A stretch of DNA of 64,000 bases, from positions 1-64,000 of the forward strand of contig NZ_BSEV01000030.1 in the NCBI RefSeq assembly GCF_027922005.1, in the 5' to 3' direction. Each line of letters begins with the position of its first letter. Positions within the stretch are counted from its first letter, which is position 1. This DNA is from Streptosporangium carneum. Lineage in GTDB: Bacteria > Actinomycetota > Actinomycetes > Streptosporangiales > Streptosporangiaceae. This document shows, in pieces, positions 53,691 through 64,000 of the stretch. A program made the position numbers and the translations under genes. The notes under the pieces were generated by a model that was not told the DNA's origin, ran no database searches, and worked only from the letters and a program-made list of their open reading frames with translations.

Positions 53691-54908
53691 GTGCCAGAGA
53701 CGAACCACGAGATCACGCTCGACTCGGCCCTCTCCGAGGAGGCCGTGCTCGCCACCTACCGGCGGATGTTCGCCGCGCTCGCGCGCGACAGCGGGGCCGT
53801 GGTCGACGAGCCCGCGTTGGTCGACATCGCCGAGACGCTGTTCGCGGCGTTCGCCGAAGCGGGCGAGGAGTGGCTGACGCACGAGCAGATGCGGCACATC
53901 TGCCGGGCCTACCCGCTGGAGCAGTTCGAGAACCGGCTGCGGGTGCTCAAGGGACTCGGCGCGATCCGTGAGGTGTTCCCCAAGCCCAACCAGCTCCGTT
54001 ACCGGGCGTCCTTCACCAGTGTGGTCGGGCTGATGTTCGTCAGGCGGATGATGGACGACGGCGGCCAGTCGGAGATGCACCGGCTTCTCGCGCTCGAGGA
54101 CCTCAACGTCGCCGACCCCCGCACGACCATGGAGGAGGCGCGCCTCAGCGCGCAGAACCTGTCGCGGGCCTTCCGGCTCTGGGCGCTCGAGCTGATCACG
54201 CTGACCAGCGGCACCATCGAGGAACTGCGCGAGCAGGCCCCCAAGCTCTGGGGCACCGAGGAGATCGCCCGCAGGGCGCAGAGCCTGCACGCCACGATCC
54301 TCACCCGCTGGCCCGACCTTGACCGCACCTGCACCGAGCTGCGCGCGGCGATCTACTCCTACAGCGACGCCTCCCGCCGGGCCGCGGGACGGCTGGCCGA
54401 CTCTGCGGGCACCACCAGGAACCTCACCCTGCTCCCCGCGGAGACCTGGCGGACCTTCGCCCAGACGGCGACCAGGGAACGGCTGGCCGCCGTGCTCGAC
54501 GGGTTCGTCTTCGACGCCCCCGCGCCGTGGCACGACCCGGCGGCGATCGTCAGGGCGGTGGACGAGAGTCCCCGCCCAGCCCCCGCCCAGCCGACGCCGC
54601 CGCGCTCGGCGCTGCCCGACCCCGGCCCCGCCGACTCCTACGAGCCGGGCGGCGGCGGTCTCGACCATCTCGCCTCCGTCGCCGAGGCCGCGCTCGCCGG
54701 GCGCGGCACGGCCCGCCTCGAGGAGCTGCTCACCGCGGACGGCGAATGGGTCTCCGCGCGCCGTCTGCTGGCCGACCTCGTCTCCGCCGACCTACGCCCC
54801 GAGTCCCCTTACCGGCTGCGCTGGTCGGACGCCCTCACCGCCGACCCGGACGGGGAGCCGACCTGGCTGTCGCACGGCCACCTGGAAAGGGCGGGCCATG
54901 ACGCCTGA
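53691..54908 (+). CDS. Kleisin-like (MukF/JetA-like) subunit of an SMC complex
   Basis: A 405-residue protein. Residues about 10-120 hold a winged-helix pattern (MRHICRAYPLEQFENRLRVL followed by KGLGAIREVFPKPNQLRYR). Residues 120-300 are long helices (EARLSAQNLSRAFRLWALEL, RTCTELRAAIYSYSDASRRA) like the helical middle of MukF/JetA. The tail after about 300 is a Pro-rich linker and a second winged-helix-like part (WVSARRLLADLVSADL). It should bridge the SMC heads and carry the KITE subunit. No enzyme motif. Start GTG 53691 (a TTG at 53661 is possible). Its 3' end overlaps the next gene by 11 bases. Assignment comes from fold-like patterns and operon order, not a family hit. Confidence 0.6.
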   Translation: MPETNHEITLDSALSEEAVLATYRRMFAALARDSGAVVDEPALVDIAETLFAAFAEAGEEWLTHEQMRHICRAYPLEQFENRLRVLKGLGAIREVFPKPNQLRYRASFTSVVGLMFVRRMMDDGGQSEMHRLLALEDLNVADPRTTMEEARLSAQNLSRAFRLWALELITLTSGTIEELREQAPKLWGTEEIARRAQSLHATILTRWPDLDRTCTELRAAIYSYSDASRRAAGRLADSAGTTRNLTLLPAETWRTFAQTATRERLAAVLDGFVFDAPAPWHDPAAIVRAVDESPRPAPAQPTPPRSALPDPGPADSYEPGGGGLDHLASVAEAALAGRGTARLEELLTADGEWVSARRLLADLVSADLRPESPYRLRWSDALTADPDGEPTWLSHGHLERAGHDA

Positions 54909-56307
54909 GCTGGCGCACGCGCGGGCCAGGGCGACCGGCCCCCTCTCGCTCGGAGTGGGCGAGCCCTCGCCCATGGGGATGACACGGCTCGGCCACGGCG
55001 ACGGAACCGGCGTCGCGCTGCCCGCGTGGCCCGACGGGGCGACCCCGTCCCTCCTGGAGGAGTACCAGGTCGCGCCGGTGAACGTGGAGCGCTCCGGAGA
55101 GACGCGGCGGGTGCTGGCCGCGGCGCTGAAGTGCTGCTGGACGGACCTGACGGCCGACCCGTGGCCGGGGAGCCCCGCGCCGGTCGAAGACGTGCTGTCG
55201 GCCTACCGGGCGCTGATCGGACGCGGCGACGACCTCATGCGCAACTGGGCCGTCGGCGCGCTGCGCCGCCTGCACGACTCGGCCTGGCTCGAGATGGACG
55301 CCGGGACCGTACGGCTCGGCCCCCGCTGCGCCTGCTGGCCCTCCGACTCCCACGCCCAGCTCAGGGAGCTGGTACGGCGCCTGCCCTCGGGAGAGGAGCG
55401 CTCCCCCGGCCTGGACGTCCTGCCCGTCGCCGGGGAGGCCTGGGACGACAGCCCGACCGGAGACGACGCGGACGGCCAGGACGGCGGGCACGACTCGGGC
55501 GGCGGGTGTTCCGCGGCCGAGGGGGACGGCGAGCGGCTCGAAGCGGACGGCGACGAGACCCACGGGCCTTCCGGAGCCGACGGCGGAGAGGCCCACGGGC
55601 GTCCCGGAGCCGACGGGCGTTCTGTGGCCGGCGGCGACGGGCGCGGGGACGGCACGGGAGGGGACGCCTTCGTGGAGGGGGCCGCGAGCGTCACGGTTCC
55701 CGACGCTGTGGACGAGGATCTGCTGGGGCCGTTCGACGAGCGCCGCAGGGCCGAGATCGTGGCGGCCTTCATGGCGGTCGAGCACGCGGCGGAGCCGGTC
55801 CACGAGGCGCGCTTCCCCGCGCTGCGCGACCCCGCGCCGCGCCGCACGCTCGCGGAGATGCTGCGCCGACGCGGCCGGACGCTGGTCCAGGATCGCGAGG
55901 CGTGGACCTCGGGTTACGCCGACGAGACGGCCGCGCTGACGGGCACGAGCCTGGGGGAGGCCGAGCGGGCGGTGCTGGTCCTCGTCCTCATCCACTCGGT
56001 GGCCATTCCCCGCGCCGAGGGCCTGCTGCCCGCCGACAGCTGGCTGTCGCCCTTTCCCGCCCAGGTGGACGAGCTGCGCAGGCACACCAGGCTGCCGGTC
56101 GGCGAGCTGGACGCGGCACTGCGGACACTGCGTCACGCGGGCCTGCTCAGCCAGGTCAAGGCGGGCGAGGAGGCCGGGGGTTACATCCCGGGGCCGCAGT
56201 TCAACCGCCTGACCCCGCAGGCCAGAAGGCGCCTGCAGGAAGAGCTGATTCTCGCCGCGGGGCCGCACACCCCGCTGGCGGCCGCCGTGAGAGCCAATCG
56301 CCGATGA
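54898..56307 (+). CDS. KITE/MukE-like double winged-helix subunit
   Basis: A 469-residue protein with two winged-helix-like regions: about 75-150 (LMRNWAVGALRRLHDSAWLE then DAGTVRLGPRC) and about 380-455 (LPVGELDAALRTLRHAGLLS, then GGYIPGPQFNRLTPQARRRL). Between them, residues about 180-265, is a Gly/Asp/Glu-rich low-complexity stretch with imprecise repeats. Tandem winged helices are the KITE pattern (MukE, JetB, ScpB), although this protein is twice as long as MukE. Overlaps both neighbours (11 bases before, ATGA after), so the three proteins are made together. No family name recognised; call by pattern. Confidence 0.55.
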   Translation: MTPELAHARARATGPLSLGVGEPSPMGMTRLGHGDGTGVALPAWPDGATPSLLEEYQVAPVNVERSGETRRVLAAALKCCWTDLTADPWPGSPAPVEDVLSAYRALIGRGDDLMRNWAVGALRRLHDSAWLEMDAGTVRLGPRCACWPSDSHAQLRELVRRLPSGEERSPGLDVLPVAGEAWDDSPTGDDADGQDGGHDSGGGCSAAEGDGERLEADGDETHGPSGADGGEAHGRPGADGRSVAGGDGRGDGTGGDAFVEGAASVTVPDAVDEDLLGPFDERRRAEIVAAFMAVEHAAEPVHEARFPALRDPAPRRTLAEMLRRRGRTLVQDREAWTSGYADETAALTGTSLGEAERAVLVLVLIHSVAIPRAEGLLPADSWLSPFPAQVDELRRHTRLPVGELDAALRTLRHAGLLSQVKAGEEAGGYIPGPQFNRLTPQARRRLQEELILAAGPHTPLAAAVRANRR

Positions 56308-59300
56308 AGGGAACGACAGGGGTGGCAGAGCAGCCGGACAGGTCCGCCGGGAGCTCGCGGGAGAGCGTGGCGAGCCTGGCGAGCGGCACGGGCGGAACAG
56401 GCCCGGCCGAAGACGCCGACACGCGGAAACGCGCCCGCGGGAACACCACGAGCGGGACGGGCCCGGCCGAAGACAGCGACACGCGGAAACGCGCCCGCGG
56501 GAACACCACGAGCGGGACAGGCCCGGCCGAAGGCGCCGACACGCGGAAACAGGCGTACGGGAGCCAGGCGAGCCTGGTGCCGGTCGAGGTCAGGGCCACC
56601 GCGCCGAGCGAGAACGTGGTCGGTGACCGCGTGCTGATCGCCGTGCAGGCGGTCAACATCTCCCGTCTGTCGACCCATCCGGTGCCCACCGTTCCCGGGA
56701 CGCTGATCGTGGTCGCGGGCGCGGGCCCCAAGGACTCGAACGGCGCGGGCAAGTCCTCGTTCATCGCGATGATCACCGCGTTGCTCGGCGACGAGCAGTG
56801 GCGCTTCGCCTCGGGCGCCAAGGCTGTCTCGGAGCTGCTGTTCAACGCCGAGCTGGCCGCGGGCGGCGGCGGCAGGACGTGGGCCAGCGCCGACCACGGC
56901 TACATCGTCGGCGTCTTCGCGGCGGCGGACGACCCGCTGGACGGCGCGAAGAGCACCGGGGGCGGCGCGACGTCCGCGAACCAGAAGGACGGCGTGAGCG
57001 GCGCGGCGTCCGCGAGCGGGGGCGGCACGGCGGGCGACGTCGCGGAGGAGGGCGTCGGCGGCGTTCGAGGCGGGGTGATGAGCGACGCGGTGACCGTGTG
57101 GCTGCGGGTCAACCAGGAGGCGCCGCACCTGGAGATCCGCTGGACCCAGGGGGTGTGCGTGGCCTCGGCGGCCTCCGAGGCCGAGCGGGTGACGCGGGCG
57201 GACGAGCTGTGGGCGACGCTGCCCCGCTCCGCGGGACGCAGGGACGTGGTGGCGCGTGACCTGACCAGGTTCCTGTACGGCGACCGGGTCAGGTGCGTTT
57301 CGTTCCTTTCGACCTCGGTGCGGAGCAAGGTCGCCACGAACCTCCTCTCCCAGCCGCTCAACGAGATCTCCCCTGAGCGGGTCTTCGAGGCGATCGCGGC
57401 GTTGACCGGTCTGGACACCGAGCTCGACCAGGAGCGGGAGGCCAGACGCGACGAGCACGCCAAGCGGGTGCGGGCGGCGCGGGCCGTCGAGCTGCTCAAG
57501 GAGTTCGAGGGCGAGTCGCGGACGCTGCTGGAGACCTTCGACCGGCGCGACCGGGCCAGGGTGCGGCTGGCGGAGGCGATGCGCTGCTGGCGGGGCCGCC
57601 TGGCGCGCAGGCTGGCCGACGCCGCGCGGCGGGACGAGGCGTTCGCCGCGGAGCTCGAGCGGGTGCGTGCGACGGGTGAGCGCGCGGCCGAGGCCGTCGC
57701 CGAGGTCAGGGCGGAGATCGCCACGCTGAAGGACGACACGCTCGAGCGCGGCCTGGCCGAGGCCCGCAAGGAGCTGGCGACCCTGCAGGCCCGCGCGGCC
57801 AAGCTGGACGCCGACCGCGCTGTCGCGGAGAACTCGGTCGACGAGTTGCGCGGGCGGATCCCGAGCCTCGAGGAGCAGCGGAGACTGGCCGACGGCCGCG
57901 ACGTGCGGACCGCGGAGAGCGAGCTGGCCCAGGCCAGGCTCAGGCTCAACGAGGCGCTGAAGGCGCTGGGTGTGGCCGACCGCGAGGCCGAGGGGGCCAG
58001 GGCGGCGCTGGACGACGCGGAGGGCGGCCCGGCCGCGGCTCAGCTCAACGCGCTCGCCGCGGCCGGACTCGGCGCGACAGGCCTGCTCGACGCGCTCGAC
58101 GTGGCCGAGCAGGCCCGCGACGAGGAGAGCGGGCGGGACCGCGCGGGACAGGCGGTGACGGCGGTCCTGGGCGCCCGCGGGTGGCCCGGGGAGCACGCCG
58201 TGATCGTGGACGCGGCCGATCTGGCGTCCGCCGCGCGAGCGCTGGCCGAGCTGCCGGGATCGGTTCTGGTCAGCTCGGCGGGCGTCACCGTCGTCGGGGC
58301 GTTCGAGGCCGTCGCGACCGGCAGGGAGGCCCGGATCAAGGCCGCCGAGCTACGGCTGCACCGGGCGCGGGACGCGCAGGAGACGGCCGCGGCGGCGGTG
58401 CGGACCGCGGAGGACGGGGTCGCCGAGGCGGGGCGGAGGCTTGAGGGGGCCAGAGCCGCCGTGCAGCTGGCCGACATCGAGCGGCGCATGGCCGAACGGC
58501 GTGAGACCCTCGTCGAACTCACCGAGGCGCTGGCCGAGGTCACGCCGAAGGTGGGAGAGGCGGAACGGCGGGCGAGCACGCTCGACTTCCGCGCCAGGAC
58601 CAGGAACATGGAGGTCGAGCGCCTGGAGGGGCGCAGAGCGAGGCACGAGGCCGAGCGTGACCAGGCCGCCGAGCAGGCGGCCAGGGTGACGACGGAGCGG
58701 CTGGCGCTCGGGATGGACGCGCTGGCCTCCGAGTGGGGCGGCACGATCGACGGGGCCCGCGAGTGGCTGGAGGCGCTGGGCGAGCAGGAGCTTCCGCTGA
58801 CGGCCGAGGAGTGGTGGCGGACCGCGGAGCGCCGCCTTGACGACGCGCTGCGCGACACCTTCCCCGGCGAGGACGACGAGATGCCCGAGGAGCTGGGCTT
58901 CCTGGTCCGGCAGCGGGCTGAGCCCGGCGCGGGACGCACCGCGCGCGAGCAGGCGACCTTCCCTGGCGTCTGCGCCGCGCTGGCGTCCTACCTGCGCGGC
59001 CAGGAGGAGTACGAACGCCACCAGCGCCGCCAGATCGAGACCCAGCTCGCCACCAGGCAGCGCGACCTGACCGCCGCCGCGAAGGGCGCCGAGGAGGCCG
59101 CGCAGTCGACCGCCGTCCACCGGGCCGCGCTGAGCGCCGCGATCAAGGCACGGCTCGCCCGGGTGGCCGAGGAGTTCGACAAGCTGGACACCTCCTACGG
59201 CGGCTACGGCGCGACGCTGGAGTTCCCGGTGCCGCCCGCGCCCGCCGACCCCGAGCAGCGCTGGGCCTGGCGGGTCACGCCCAAGTGGCGCAGGGGCGAG

Positions 59301-59693
59301 GGGCAGGGCTACGTGCCGTACAACCGCCGGGCCAACACGGCGCTGATGGACGAGAAGGCGGTCAAGCTGGTCTGCGCGGCGGCGATCGCGTCCTCCGGCG
59401 GCGGCCACCTGTGCCTGGTCCTGGACGAGCTGGGCCGCAACCTGGGCAAGGAGCACCGCAGGGAGGCCGTGGCGCTGTTCCGCAGGATCGGCGAGACCTA
59501 CGGGATCACGGTGATCGGCGCGCTCCAGGACGACATGGAGCCCTACGCGATCGACGCCTGCGGGCAGTACATCAAGTTGCGTCGTTCCTCGGACGCCATG
59601 CCGTACAACGAGCCGCCGGTGATCATCGGTCATGACGACCACGCGGAGCGCGTGCGCGCGCTCGCCTCCGCGGTGAGCAGGCAGACGGTGTGA
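56304..59693 (+). CDS. SMC-like ATPase (MukB/JetC-like)
   Basis: An 1129-residue protein. Residues 30-90 are a 20-residue repeat. The ATPase head starts with Walker A GPKDSNGAGKSS at about 141 and continues through DRVRCVSFLSTSVRSKVATN. A coiled coil (about 375-585; ARRDEAFAAELERVRATGER) leads to a small globular hinge-like part (about 597-665; VTAVLGARGWPGEHAVIVDA), a second coiled coil, and the C-terminal head with Walker B HLCLVLDELGRNLG at about 1036. The usual LSGGE signature is not seen; at its place is NTALMDEKAVKLVCAAA. SMC ATPases form dimers that hold or extrude DNA. A Gly/Ser-rich insert interrupts the first head at about 213-257. The ATG overlaps the previous stop; earlier in-frame codons are antisense-like noise. 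Confidence 0.75.
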   Translation: MKGTTGVAEQPDRSAGSSRESVASLASGTGGTGPAEDADTRKRARGNTTSGTGPAEDSDTRKRARGNTTSGTGPAEGADTRKQAYGSQASLVPVEVRATAPSENVVGDRVLIAVQAVNISRLSTHPVPTVPGTLIVVAGAGPKDSNGAGKSSFIAMITALLGDEQWRFASGAKAVSELLFNAELAAGGGGRTWASADHGYIVGVFAAADDPLDGAKSTGGGATSANQKDGVSGAASASGGGTAGDVAEEGVGGVRGGVMSDAVTVWLRVNQEAPHLEIRWTQGVCVASAASEAERVTRADELWATLPRSAGRRDVVARDLTRFLYGDRVRCVSFLSTSVRSKVATNLLSQPLNEISPERVFEAIAALTGLDTELDQEREARRDEHAKRVRAARAVELLKEFEGESRTLLETFDRRDRARVRLAEAMRCWRGRLARRLADAARRDEAFAAELERVRATGERAAEAVAEVRAEIATLKDDTLERGLAEARKELATLQARAAKLDADRAVAENSVDELRGRIPSLEEQRRLADGRDVRTAESELAQARLRLNEALKALGVADREAEGARAALDDAEGGPAAAQLNALAAAGLGATGLLDALDVAEQARDEESGRDRAGQAVTAVLGARGWPGEHAVIVDAADLASAARALAELPGSVLVSSAGVTVVGAFEAVATGREARIKAAELRLHRARDAQETAAAAVRTAEDGVAEAGRRLEGARAAVQLADIERRMAERRETLVELTEALAEVTPKVGEAERRASTLDFRARTRNMEVERLEGRRARHEAERDQAAEQAARVTTERLALGMDALASEWGGTIDGAREWLEALGEQELPLTAEEWWRTAERRLDDALRDTFPGEDDEMPEELGFLVRQRAEPGAGRTAREQATFPGVCAALASYLRGQEEYERHQRRQIETQLATRQRDLTAAAKGAEEAAQSTAVHRAALSAAIKARLARVAEEFDKLDTSYGGYGATLEFPVPPAPADPEQRWAWRVTPKWRRGEGQGYVPYNRRANTALMDEKAVKLVCAAAIASSGGGHLCLVLDELGRNLGKEHRREAVALFRRIGETYGITVIGALQDDMEPYAIDACGQYIKLRRSSDAMPYNEPPVIIGHDDHAERVRALASAVSRQTV
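56395..56562 (+). repeat. 60-bp tandem repeat in the SMC N-terminus
   Basis: Three copies with 60-bp spacing (starting at about 56401, 56461 and 56521) encode SGTGPAEDSDTRKRARGNTT-like 20-residue units; the third copy is diverged (RKQAYGS). The frame is preserved, unlike the 25-bp repeat at the left end. Confidence 0.95.
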
Positions 59694-59730
59694 GCCGACA
59701 CGGTGTGAGCGGACACGGTGTGAGCCGACA
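59686..59730 (+). repeat. 15-bp tandem repeat over the SMC stop codon
   Basis: Three copies of ACGGTGTGAGCCGAC (one with one change). The first copy contains the TGA stop of the SMC gene, so each further copy repeats the same stop. Lies in the 155-base gap before the ThrE-type gene. Confidence 0.9.
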
Positions 59731-61952: not shown

Positions 61953-64000
61953 TCAGGAAGTGAAGACCGACAGGGTCGAGCCTCGGCGTTCCTTGCGGAC
62001 CCGCAGCTGCGCCGGCACACGGGTGCGCAGCTCGGTGACGTGGCTGACGATGCCGACGGCCCTGCCTCCGTCGCGCAGGCCGTCCAGGATGTCCAGCACG
62101 CCGTCGAGGGTGTCCTCGTCCAGGGTGCCGAACCCCTCGTCGATGAAGAGCGTGCCGAGCTCCACTCCCCCCGCCTCGGCGGTGACCACGTCGGCCAGGC
62201 CGAGCGCGAGCGCCAGCGAGGTGATGAAGCTCTCGCCGCCGGAAAGCGTCGCCGGATCGCGGTCGAAGCCGGTCCAGCCGTCCAGGATCCGCAGGCCGAG
62301 CCCGCCTCCCGACCTGCTCCTGTCACCCGCGGTCCGGCCGAGGCCGTGTTCGAGGAGGTAACGCCCGCCGGACATCCGGTCGAGCCGCTCGTTGGCCGAC
62401 TCGACCACCTGCCGCAGGCGCTCGCCGAGCACGTAGGCGGAAAGACGCATCTTCCACCGGTTGTCACCGGAGGTCCCGCCGGTCAGAGCCGCGAGCCCCT
62501 CCGCGAGGCGGTGCCGCCGCTCGGCGGGACGCCAGCGTTCCAGACATCCGGCCAGCTCGGCGCGGAGCGCGGCCAGCCTGGCCAGACGGGTCTCGGCCTG
62601 GTTCCTGGCGGACAGCAGGCCCGCCTGCGCGGCGTCGGCGGCGTCACGCGCGGCTCGCAGCCCCTCGAGGTCGGGCTCGGGCTCGGCGGCCGCGGCGATC
62701 AGCTCGGGGTCGGCCAGCACCGCGGCGACGGCGACGCGTTCCCTGTCGAGCTCGCGGAGCCGTTCGGCCTTCTCCTCCTGCTCGGCGGGCGGGCGGACCG
62801 CCACGCGCGCGTCGTCGATCCCGAGGAAGCCCGCCTCGACGGCGGCGGCCACGGCCGCCACCTGCGCCGCCGCCAGCTCCGTCGCGGTGGCCTGCTCCCG
62901 CTGGGTGGCCTCGACCGCCTCGGTGAGCAGCTCGGCCTCGTCGGCCAGCCGGTCCAGCCTGGCGGCGAGGGTCGGATCGTCGCCCCGTGCCGCGTCGATG
63001 CGCGCGGCCAGCCGTTCGGCGTCGGCTGTCAGCCTCTCCTGGGTCGTACGGCGGGCGGCGAGCGTCACCGCGAGCCCGCGCGAGCGCTCCTCGAGCTCGC
63101 CCAGCTCGGCCGCGACGCGGCCGGCCTCCGCCACCAGCACCGGCTCGGCTCCCGCCGACTCCCGCAGCAGGGCGAGCGCCGTCCGCGCCTCCTCCAGTTC
63201 TCCCGCGGCGTCCTCAGCGGTGAGGTCCGTCACGGCGGACGCCTCGCGGTGGGCGGCCGCCAGGTCGACGACACGGGTGGCGGCCGCGACCGCCACGGCC
63301 AGGAGCGCGGCCTCCCGGGTGAGGCGGTCCCTGCGGGCCTGGACCGTGGGGTCGGCGCCGCGCGCCGTGTCGAGGCGGACGGCCAGCCGGTCGTGCTCCG
63401 CCCGCCATTCCGCCCGTCTGGCACGGCCCTCGGCCAGCGACCGCTCGGTCTCCGCCGCCCGGGCTCTCACGGCGTCCAGCTCGGCCGCGAGGCGCTCCGA
63501 CTCCGCGGCGAGCTCCGTCTCCACGCTCGCGGCGGAGACCAGCTCGGCCAGTGTCCGCCCGGCCTCGCCGAGGGCCTCCTCCGCCTGCCGCGCGCTCAGC
63601 TCCCCCGCGGCGGCGAGAGCCTCCTGCAGCCGTGAGGCCAGGGCGGTGACGGCGTTCTCCGCAGTTCCGCGCCGCTCGGCGGCGGCGTCGTAGGCGCTCT
63701 GCGCCGCGCGTTCGTCCTCGGCGGTCGAGGCCTGCCGTGCCGGGGCCGCGGGGGCGGGGTGCTCGGGCGAGCCGCAGACCGCGCAGGGCTCGCCGGGAGC
63801 GAGTTTGGCCGCCAGCTCGGCGGCCATGCCGTCGATCCTGGCCTGCCGGAGATCCTGATGGCGGTCCCTGGCCAGCTGGGCGAGATCGACCGCCTCGGCG
63901 CAGACCGTCCTGGCGGCCTCCAGCTCGGCGCGGAGGACGTCACGCCGCCCGGCCGCCTCGAGCAGGACGGTCGCGGCGTCCACACGCGCCCGCGCCGCGG
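61953..64000 (-). CDS. sbcC: SbcC-type exonuclease subunit, 3' part, runs off the right edge
   Basis: The frame is open to the end of the window, so at least 682 residues and the start are beyond it. Seen from N to C in this part: a coiled coil, the zinc-hook CAVCGSPEHP (about 75 residues into the visible part), a long Ala/Arg/Glu-rich coiled coil, and the C-terminal ATPase head with MSGGRYLLEHGLGR, ATLSGGESFITSLALALGLA (signature), GTLFIDEGFGTLDEDTLDGV (Walker B and D-loop) and GIVSHVTELRTRV (H-loop). SbcC with SbcD nuclease processes hairpins and blocked DNA ends. The signature motif is normal here, in contrast to the SMC gene at 56304-59693. The sbcD partner is expected beyond the right edge. 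Confidence 0.95.
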   Translation of the reverse strand, partial: AARARVDAATVLLEAAGRRDVLRAELEAARTVCAEAVDLAQLARDRHQDLRQARIDGMAAELAAKLAPGEPCAVCGSPEHPAPAAPARQASTAEDERAAQSAYDAAAERRGTAENAVTALASRLQEALAAAGELSARQAEEALGEAGRTLAELVSAASVETELAAESERLAAELDAVRARAAETERSLAEGRARRAEWRAEHDRLAVRLDTARGADPTVQARRDRLTREAALLAVAVAAATRVVDLAAAHREASAVTDLTAEDAAGELEEARTALALLRESAGAEPVLVAEAGRVAAELGELEERSRGLAVTLAARRTTQERLTADAERLAARIDAARGDDPTLAARLDRLADEAELLTEAVEATQREQATATELAAAQVAAVAAAVEAGFLGIDDARVAVRPPAEQEEKAERLRELDRERVAVAAVLADPELIAAAAEPEPDLEGLRAARDAADAAQAGLLSARNQAETRLARLAALRAELAGCLERWRPAERRHRLAEGLAALTGGTSGDNRWKMRLSAYVLGERLRQVVESANERLDRMSGGRYLLEHGLGRTAGDRSRSGGGLGLRILDGWTGFDRDPATLSGGESFITSLALALGLADVVTAEAGGVELGTLFIDEGFGTLDEDTLDGVLDILDGLRDGGRAVGIVSHVTELRTRVPAQLRVRKERRGSTLSVFTS

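Follow-up and report, generated by a model that had tools for sequence, protein, structure and literature searches.

The window analysed here, a stretch of 64,000 nucleotides from Streptosporangium carneum (NCBI RefSeq assembly GCF_027922005.1, contig NZ_BSEV01000030.1, positions 1 to 64,000), holds at positions 53,691 to 59,693 a three-gene operon that probably encodes an SMC-kleisin-KITE complex not covered by known models. We read its products, A, B and C, as a fourth, unnamed type of JetABCD (Wadjet) system that is free of the JetD nuclease in the window's clade, and we put the probability of this reading at about 0.63. Wadjet JetABCD systems of types I-III are also called MksBEFG, and EptABCD is presumably a further name for them. 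In the window's clade the complex is most likely condensin-like, acting on the chromosome and related to a defence system; a distant sister clade, clade II, is apparently the fourth JetABCD type. The window genome measures 9.8 Mb and is called G000 below, where G and L numbers are our own handles for genomes and loci. The three genes are as follows.

53691-54908, + strand: gene A, 405 aa, GTG start, putative kleisin (MukF/JetA-like)
54898-56307, + strand: gene B, 469 aa, consisting of B1, a linker and B2
56304-59693, + strand: gene C, up to 1129 aa, SMC-like ATPase with head-coil-hinge-coil-head layout, conserved core at 56607-59690

The three genes overlap, as a preliminary description of this DNA had stated; all lie on the + strand, and the overlaps are 11 bases for A and B and 4 bases for B and C. 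It was also right that no JetD gene is adjacent and that the gene 3' of the operon is ThrE (PF06738, E 2.5e-61). A search for a known family covering all three genes, which by its own account would have refuted it, found no family covering A, B or C in Pfam, NCBIfam or PADLOC; the library matches below cut-off include coil stretches of C (SMC_prok_B, E 2.6e-7; LmuB from PADLOC, E 5e-4). Sequence searches of the PDB with C alone and with profiles of C and A returned coiled-coil or chance matches only, and Rfam and tRNA scans of the window gave no match. The suggestion of a distinct condensin-like family fits these results, together with the SMC-like split head of C, the KITE-like fold of B2 and a MukF/JetA-like A from a weak model.

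Relatives were gathered by tblastn with one genome per species. This yielded 180 relatives, of which the best 80 were taken as core loci (L031-L110), and a distant set of 14 loci (L152-L154, L208-L218) was fetched in addition. The closest C relatives belong to Streptosporangium species, and the core loci come from Streptosporangium, Planobispora, Planomonospora, Nonomuraea, Herbidospora, Microtetraspora, Actinomadura, Thermomonospora and others. Profiles were compared with hhalign; the first profile sets included a few rows from wrong open reading frames (same start, other strand) and were remade from the longest open reading frames.

From its sequence, C is best read as nearest to JetC/MksB among split SMC-like ATPases. 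Its features are:

56724-56759, + strand: Walker A, GPKDSNGAGKSS, invariant in 81/81 core-clade rows, with the lysine in 13/13 others
59334-59357, + strand: NTALMDEK at the position of the ABC signature, where JetC has SGG[QE] and MukB has LSTGE
59412-59429, + strand: Walker B, CLVLDE, with the catalytic glutamate; D and E in 81/81 core rows and 12/13 others, with one gap
57924-58526, + strand: putative hinge with flanking coil, core residues 440-640, aligned by hhalign to Wadjet-I JetC
56387-56550, + strand: 60-bp tandem repeat, 2.7 copies, within the variable N-terminal tail of C

The head is split, with Walker A at the N end, Walker B at the C end and long coils between them. The two motifs had been described already, and because Walker A and the D and E of Walker B are invariant in 81/81 core-clade C proteins, the reading of these motifs goes beyond chance. 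The N-terminal head of C matches JetC-I with 62% probability (0.1% with reversed profiles), and its middle part, taken with the coil, matches Wadjet-I JetC with 63% over 202 columns (0.4% reversed). In two of three distant C proteins tested, those of L209 and L210, SMC_N spans both head halves at E 3e-4, below the Pfam gathering score. The head-coil-hinge-coil-head order given in the preliminary description stands as a layout only, with the proviso that the hinge match fails once the flanking coil is removed. Its figure of 1129 residues is an upper length, which includes a variable N-terminal tail of about 100 residues with the 60-bp repeat. A 15-bp tandem repeat (3.1 copies) spans the stop codon of C at 59685-59730.

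Just before Walker B, the reading of ALMDEK in place of LSGGE is borne out, as NTALM faces the K-SGG[QE] of JetC; the profile-profile alignment that places it there is free of gaps and is itself weak (6% and 3%). The canonical [LK]SGG[QE] signature is absent from both clades, which have [STG]A[QLR] instead: N-T-A-L-M in 81/81 core rows, N-[TSG]-A-[QR] in 12/13 non-core rows (the other has a gap) and NTAQM in all 14 C proteins of a second family, f21. Within the C family N and A are invariant, T becomes S or G in some proteins, and the second glycine is replaced by L, Q or R. The comparison rows for JetC-I, JetC-II and MukB read SGGQ, SGGE, SAGE or STGE, apart from four without a clear signature motif (L143, L144, L145 and L188, of which L144 and L188 are wrongly picked open reading frames).

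Gene B was described as a double winged-helix protein. Winged helices are indeed modelled, and B turns out to unite two ancestral subunits, each with a gene of its own in 22 of the 80 core loci. It is best read as a fusion of two paralogous winged-helix proteins, of which B2 looks KITE-like in the model. Its parts are:

54898-55401, + strand: B1, N-terminal half, one confident winged helix (residues 66-161), its own gene in relatives
55402-55698, + strand: low-complexity linker between B1 and B2, predicted local distance difference test (pLDDT) score below 50 at residues 173-246
55699-56307, + strand: B2, C-terminal half, tandem winged helix, KITE-like (ScpB/JetB-like) from the model

The linker holds 21- and 33-bp tandem repeats at 55513-55616. 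The model of B, built from 88 rows, has a mean pLDDT of 79 and shows in order the B1 winged helix, a disordered linker and the two winged helices of B2. B1 and B2 match each other with 46% probability (E 2e-4), a score that none of 40 shuffles reached, and B2 matches JetB-III, a profile of two rows, with 17.5% (0.2% reversed). In the Foldseek results for B, archaeal ScpB (6juv) took ranks 1 and 2 (E 0.003 and 0.015), 1t6s, which we take to be ScpB, rank 4, ScpAB rank 5 and a JetABC chain taken to be JetB (8dk1_E) rank 32; the remaining rows are mostly other winged-helix proteins, the fold being a common one. The rows of a second structure search lie nearly all on residues 327-457, so that B1 is barely covered; many are unrelated winged-helix proteins, with ScpB chains among them at ranks 10 and 22. 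The ScpB profile gave 3.5% for B2 and 0.2% for both B1 and A; it is uninformative, because known KITE pairs fail as well (JetB-I against ScpB, 0.3%).

A resembles kleisins of the MukF/JetA kind, to judge from a weak model. In the order of its modelled elements, a helical N-terminal half is followed by long helices (147-239), a linker (about 280-322) and a C-terminal winged helix (about 323-400). A VIA structure search with this model placed chains of MukF, MukEF or MukBEF entries at ranks 1, 2, 3, 6, 8, 10 and 14 of 50, with Z of 8.5-9.9, and a Wadjet-II JetABC chain covering residues 124-404 at rank 37. We presume the MukF chains in this list from their length, as only 1t98 is titled MukF. 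Since Z below 13 may be chance for helical models, these matches are a lead only. Against Wadjet-I JetA the profile of A reaches 17% (0.1% reversed), and against the first set of JetA profiles 26%, a score reached by none of 40 column shuffles.

The make-up of the operon is kept in relatives, where the gene order is A-B-C or A-B1-B2-C. A was found in 73 of the 80 core loci, and in the other seven the contig begins within B or just 5' of it. All four parts (A, B1, B2 and C) are present in 13 of the 14 distant loci and in 14/14 genomes of the second family, f21. B is a single gene in 53 core loci, separate B1 and B2 genes occur in 22 (Actinomadura, Thermomonospora, Bailinhaonella and two metagenome bins) and five are cut. 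Among the distant loci, the two are split in L152, L153, L208-L212 and L216-L218 and fused in L213-L215, apparently independently of the fusion in Streptosporangiaceae. That B1 and B2 became joined on two branches suggests that they act next to each other. The operon of L154 (G196:C82) is broken: B1 was not found, C is interrupted, and a weak C-terminal JetD fragment (E 0.05) is left.

The neighbourhood survey for a fourth gene, also proposed in the preliminary description, separates the two sets of loci. A JetD-family gene adjoins the operon in 9 of the 14 distant loci and in 0 of the 80 core loci, 56 of which have at least 5 kb on both sides; in f21 the count is 0 of 14. Pfam JetD_C was found beside L209, L210, L211 and L213 (E 1e-12 to 1e-17) and DUF2399 beside L153 (E 7e-9), and a hidden Markov model (HMM) built from these five added L212, L214, L215 and L216. 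The acidic residues of the putative Toprim site (E, DxD) are invariant in 9/9. JetD lies downstream on the same strand in L153 and L216, convergent in L209-L212 and upstream of A in L213-L215. The HMM gave no match beside the operon in L152, L208 or L217; the gene adjoining C in L208 is an AMP-binding enzyme, and L218 ends inside C. The JetD profile found no match in G000 among the 41 of 107 candidates scored, and it gave weak matches in 3 of 41 genomes, of which G008 belongs to the window's genus. PADLOC calls JetD beside L153, L210 and L213 (E to 4e-13). The Jet models of PADLOC and NCBIfam do not recognise A, B or C of the window as Jet proteins, nor do they recognise the distant A of L209, L210 and L213 or the B1 and B2 of L210; C, tested also from L209, L210 and L213, matches JetC1 only by coil stretches (E 4e-4 to 8e-4).

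Known defence genes adjoin three of the four JetD-bearing loci tested (GajA, E 1e-181; GajB, E 5e-190; DrmA, E 2e-194). GajB of Gabija lies by L210 (2528-4471), the Gabija genes GajA and GajB together with PDC-S06 lie by L211 (13000-16964), and DrmA and DrmB of DISARM lie by L214 (11986-16951); the two neighbours tested at L215 gave no defence match. As a control, nine neighbours of the window operon gave only generic ATPase matches and one weak regulator match in PADLOC. Ten neighbours of four other JetD-less loci gave a single specific defence match, BnzB; the matches there to a kinase and an oxidoreductase, and a weak one to a regulator, look generic. The BnzB-like gene (E 1e-97) lies at L073:12177-13565, beside a JetD-less operon in Herbidospora. 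Matches to PD-T4-6 were dropped as defence evidence, since the same models match an ordinary kinase beside a core-clade operon.

C was sought in scans of the family, the phylum and the class. Scoring there covered the two best candidates of each genome, and presence and copy counts are accordingly lower bounds. C is present in 21 of 60 relatives (in G016 only at E 9.5e-4) and in at least 133 of 297 genomes and at least 29 of 68 genera of family f1, a few being fragments or weak. The first C profile found it in at least 3 of 396 genomes of the phylum; a clade II profile found at least 31 of 374 in the class, four only at E 1e-4 or worse, and revealed f21. In genus g4 it occurs in 53 of 54 genomes and in 41/41 good ones, the genome without it being 63% complete. 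C is a single-copy gene in g4, where genomes with two matches show complementary pieces, and genus g302 has one match in each of its 12 genomes (12/12). Three g302 genomes (G495, G509 and G538) also have a DUF3375 (MksF/JetA-I) match, which is weak in G509. In the window's genus, 7 of the 16 genomes have Wadjet-II JetC. G000 has an ScpB, and the complex would therefore be an addition to Smc-ScpAB. Two genomes, G650 and G613, carry a C of the core clade and, besides, a distant one accompanied by JetD (L209 and L215).

Searches of viral contigs with both C profiles gave pattern matches, none of which was confirmed. The plasmid search for C returned the single record NZ_LT559118.1, so no plasmid copy was seen; this record is an 11.85-Mb sequence of Nonomuraea gerenzanensis, evidently a chromosome filed among plasmids.

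The C tree largely follows genera. Among its 93 rows, those of Nonomuraea, Actinomadura, Herbidospora, Microtetraspora, Sinosporangium and Spongiactinospora each group together, and Streptosporangium, Planobispora and Planomonospora form one clade of 13 rows, except for one Streptosporangium strain (L061). A tree of 30 rows, built with careful settings, has a long branch that parts clade I, which is the window's clade, from clade II, which is distant and sporadic; JetD accompanies 1 of 21 rows in the former (L216) and 8 of 9 in the latter, and the program flagged long branches and odd composition. The operon of the window's clade is under purifying selection: compared with four close relatives (L065, L082, L084 and L032), A, B2 and C have ratios of nonsynonymous to synonymous polymorphism (pN/pS) of 0.10-0.26.

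Several results weigh against our reading. In the profile searches proposed at the outset (MukF/JetA, MukE/JetB and MukB/JetC), A and B reach at most 26% against known JetA, JetB, MukF and MukE. Known pairs score no better (JetA-I against MukF 0.7%, JetA-I against JetA-III 0.6%, JetB-II against MukE 0.0%), and low kleisin and KITE values are therefore normal among these families; their SMC and JetD parts do detect each other, e.g. JetC-I and MukB at 96%. The kleisin and KITE assignments rest on models. Of the structure predictions that had been proposed, A and B were modelled singly, B2 looking KITE-like and the model of A being weak. The AlphaFold2 model of A, from 64 rows, has a mean pLDDT of 60 and a predicted template modelling score of 0.36; Foldseek found no match to it at E 0.001, and its three best VIA rows have a root-mean-square deviation above 12 Å, the row at rank 8 one of 25.6 Å. 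Foldseek with the B model likewise gave 0 matches below E 0.001. For C, the C-terminal head half alone matches JetC with only 3%, and the hinge is not shown by homology, because narrow cuts score only 0.2-2.1% (2.1% for 470-600, 0.2% for 480-580 and 0.3% in an earlier cut). The full-length score of C against JetC was discounted, since reversed profiles still give 60-78%, largely from coiled coil.

The distribution has its exceptions too. Of the 16 genomes in the window's genus, 14 have C and two (G010 and G014) do not. These two show three and two matches to Wadjet-II JetC, in part fragments of a single gene. L216, among three basal loci of clade I, has JetD, and L208 lacks it inside the otherwise JetD-bearing clade II. 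A single loss of JetD was given up, as the tree needs at least two changes and its root is not fixed. Against the distant L037 and L094, pN/pS rises to 0.25-0.62.

The preliminary description had offered housekeeping or anti-plasmid defence as the role. Housekeeping is favoured for the window's clade because C is near-universal and single-copy in two genera, its tree largely follows genera and JetD is missing; defence is favoured for the distant sister clade because of JetD and the defence neighbours. It is unlikely, though the strongest of the alternatives, that the window's clade still acts against plasmids or phages, with an effector in trans (e.g. the genome's own Wadjet-II JetD) or by silencing without cutting. 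Human Smc5/6 reportedly silences DNA without cutting. The JetD genes and defence neighbours of the sister clade and the BnzB-like gene of L073 speak for such a role, as does a Wadjet-II JetC in G000 itself (TIGR02680, above cut-off; G000:C2:468641-472621, L137). A conserved gene lies downstream of that JetC, at the JetD position. Nine of the 14 C-bearing genomes of the window's genus have no TIGR02680 match, so a Wadjet-II JetD in trans cannot be general, and Wadjet, which is sporadic, differs from the near-universal, single-copy C of two genera. Moreover, at most 18 of 74 loci share any one neighbour family within three genes, with gene calls from a home-made method based on third-codon-position GC content, and the nine window neighbours include no specific defence gene. 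ThrE was rejected as an operon partner, occurring in only 10 of 74 loci.

Much less probable still is that C is a Rad50/SbcC-like repair ATPase working with the neighbouring SbcCD, with A and B as accessory winged-helix proteins. The window has the following gene downstream of the operon:

61956-63983, opposite strand: sbcC

In 34 of 73 loci sbcC follows the operon in this way; the closest edge of the match is at a distance of 0.03-8.6 kb, and the genes in between vary. We count this arrangement for our own reading as well. The RecF/SMC-like head (SMC_N in two of three distant C proteins) and a hinge that is not independent of the coil would also suit such an ATPase. The match of C to the window's SbcC fragment is however only 2.3%, the best model matches are MukF-type chains for A and ScpB for B2, with JetB lower, and the JetD genes and A-B1-B2-C order of relatives fit JetABCD. 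That the operon is a decaying, inactive Wadjet remnant seems least probable of all. JetD is missing, the signature motif looks degenerate and one operon (L154) is visibly broken, but the low pN/pS against close relatives, the invariant Walker A and Walker B residues and the presence in 53/54 and 12/12 genomes argue against decay, and the signature without SGG is shared with the JetD-bearing clade.

In the chromosome-acting complex that we favour, which is likely a ring-shaped DNA motor, two C subunits would be joined at the hinge and A and B would bridge their heads. ATP at heads with the non-canonical signature would drive motion, by which the complex may translocate along chromosomal DNA or extrude loops. 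Without JetD it would, like MukBEF and MksBEF, have a structural activity, in folding, segregation, topology or repair. The nuclease may have been lost in the window's clade rather than gained by the other. We consider it possible, at somewhat less than even odds, that a fourth type of Wadjet, having two distinct KITE subunits and a non-canonical signature, lost its nuclease and, independently of MukBEF/MksBEF, came to be fixed as a chromosome organiser in two or more actinobacterial families. This would be the domestication of an immune SMC complex, whose armed and disarmed forms are found within a single bacterial family and, in two cases, within the same genome.

These findings bear on how SMC complexes pass between chromosome care and immunity (compare a 2023 review, PMC10586767). 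Since one protein family occurs both armed with JetD and unarmed inside a single bacterial family, and in both states in two genomes, the transition becomes testable. The unarmed form is fixed in the tested genera beside Smc-ScpAB, and nearly every sampled genome of at least two genera carries it; this suggests a defence machine that has become, or has been retained as, a caretaker of the chromosome. That SGG is absent throughout the family raises the question of what SMC head engagement needs, and current PADLOC models miss A, B and C of the new family. The term 'type IV Wadjet' was not found in the literature searched, which excludes most subscription papers and bioRxiv preprints, and the best-matching papers listed for Wadjet with Streptosporangium, Nonomuraea or Actinomadura do not mention Wadjet.

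Among known systems, Lamassu LmuB and SbcC-Rad50 share with C a coiled-coil ABC ATPase, and PADLOC matches C to the LmuB coil; no LmuA or LmuC model matches A or B, and the low score with the window's SbcC fragment separates C from SbcC-Rad50. Like Smc-ScpAB, the operon has a protein, B2, whose model ranks ScpB first, but a separate ScpB exists in the genome and the profile match of B2 to ScpB is only 3.5%. MukBEF and nuclease-less MksBEF are likewise SMC-kleisin-KITE complexes without a nuclease that are vertically kept, and the model of A ranks MukF-type chains first. The profiles, by contrast, are unlike MukBEF: hhalign gives 1.8% for C with MukB and 0.2% for A with MukF, every part scores at most 9% against E. 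coli MukB, MukE and MukF (the Walker A stretch or N-terminal head alone 9-26%), no Pfam match was found, and the window genome also has ScpB. From Wadjet I-III the new family differs in having two winged-helix/KITE-like genes rather than one, in lacking the SGG signature, in the absence of JetD from the window's clade and in its core-gene spread in g4 and g302, in contrast to a sporadic distribution in defence islands. It shares with Wadjet I-III the kleisin-KITE-SMC gene order in one operon, a JetD-family Toprim nuclease in the sister clade and its best profile matches (JetA-I, JetB-III, JetC-I and JetD-I). If B1 is a KITE protein, the complex would also resemble eukaryotic Smc5/6, which with Nse1 and Nse3 has two different KITE-type proteins.

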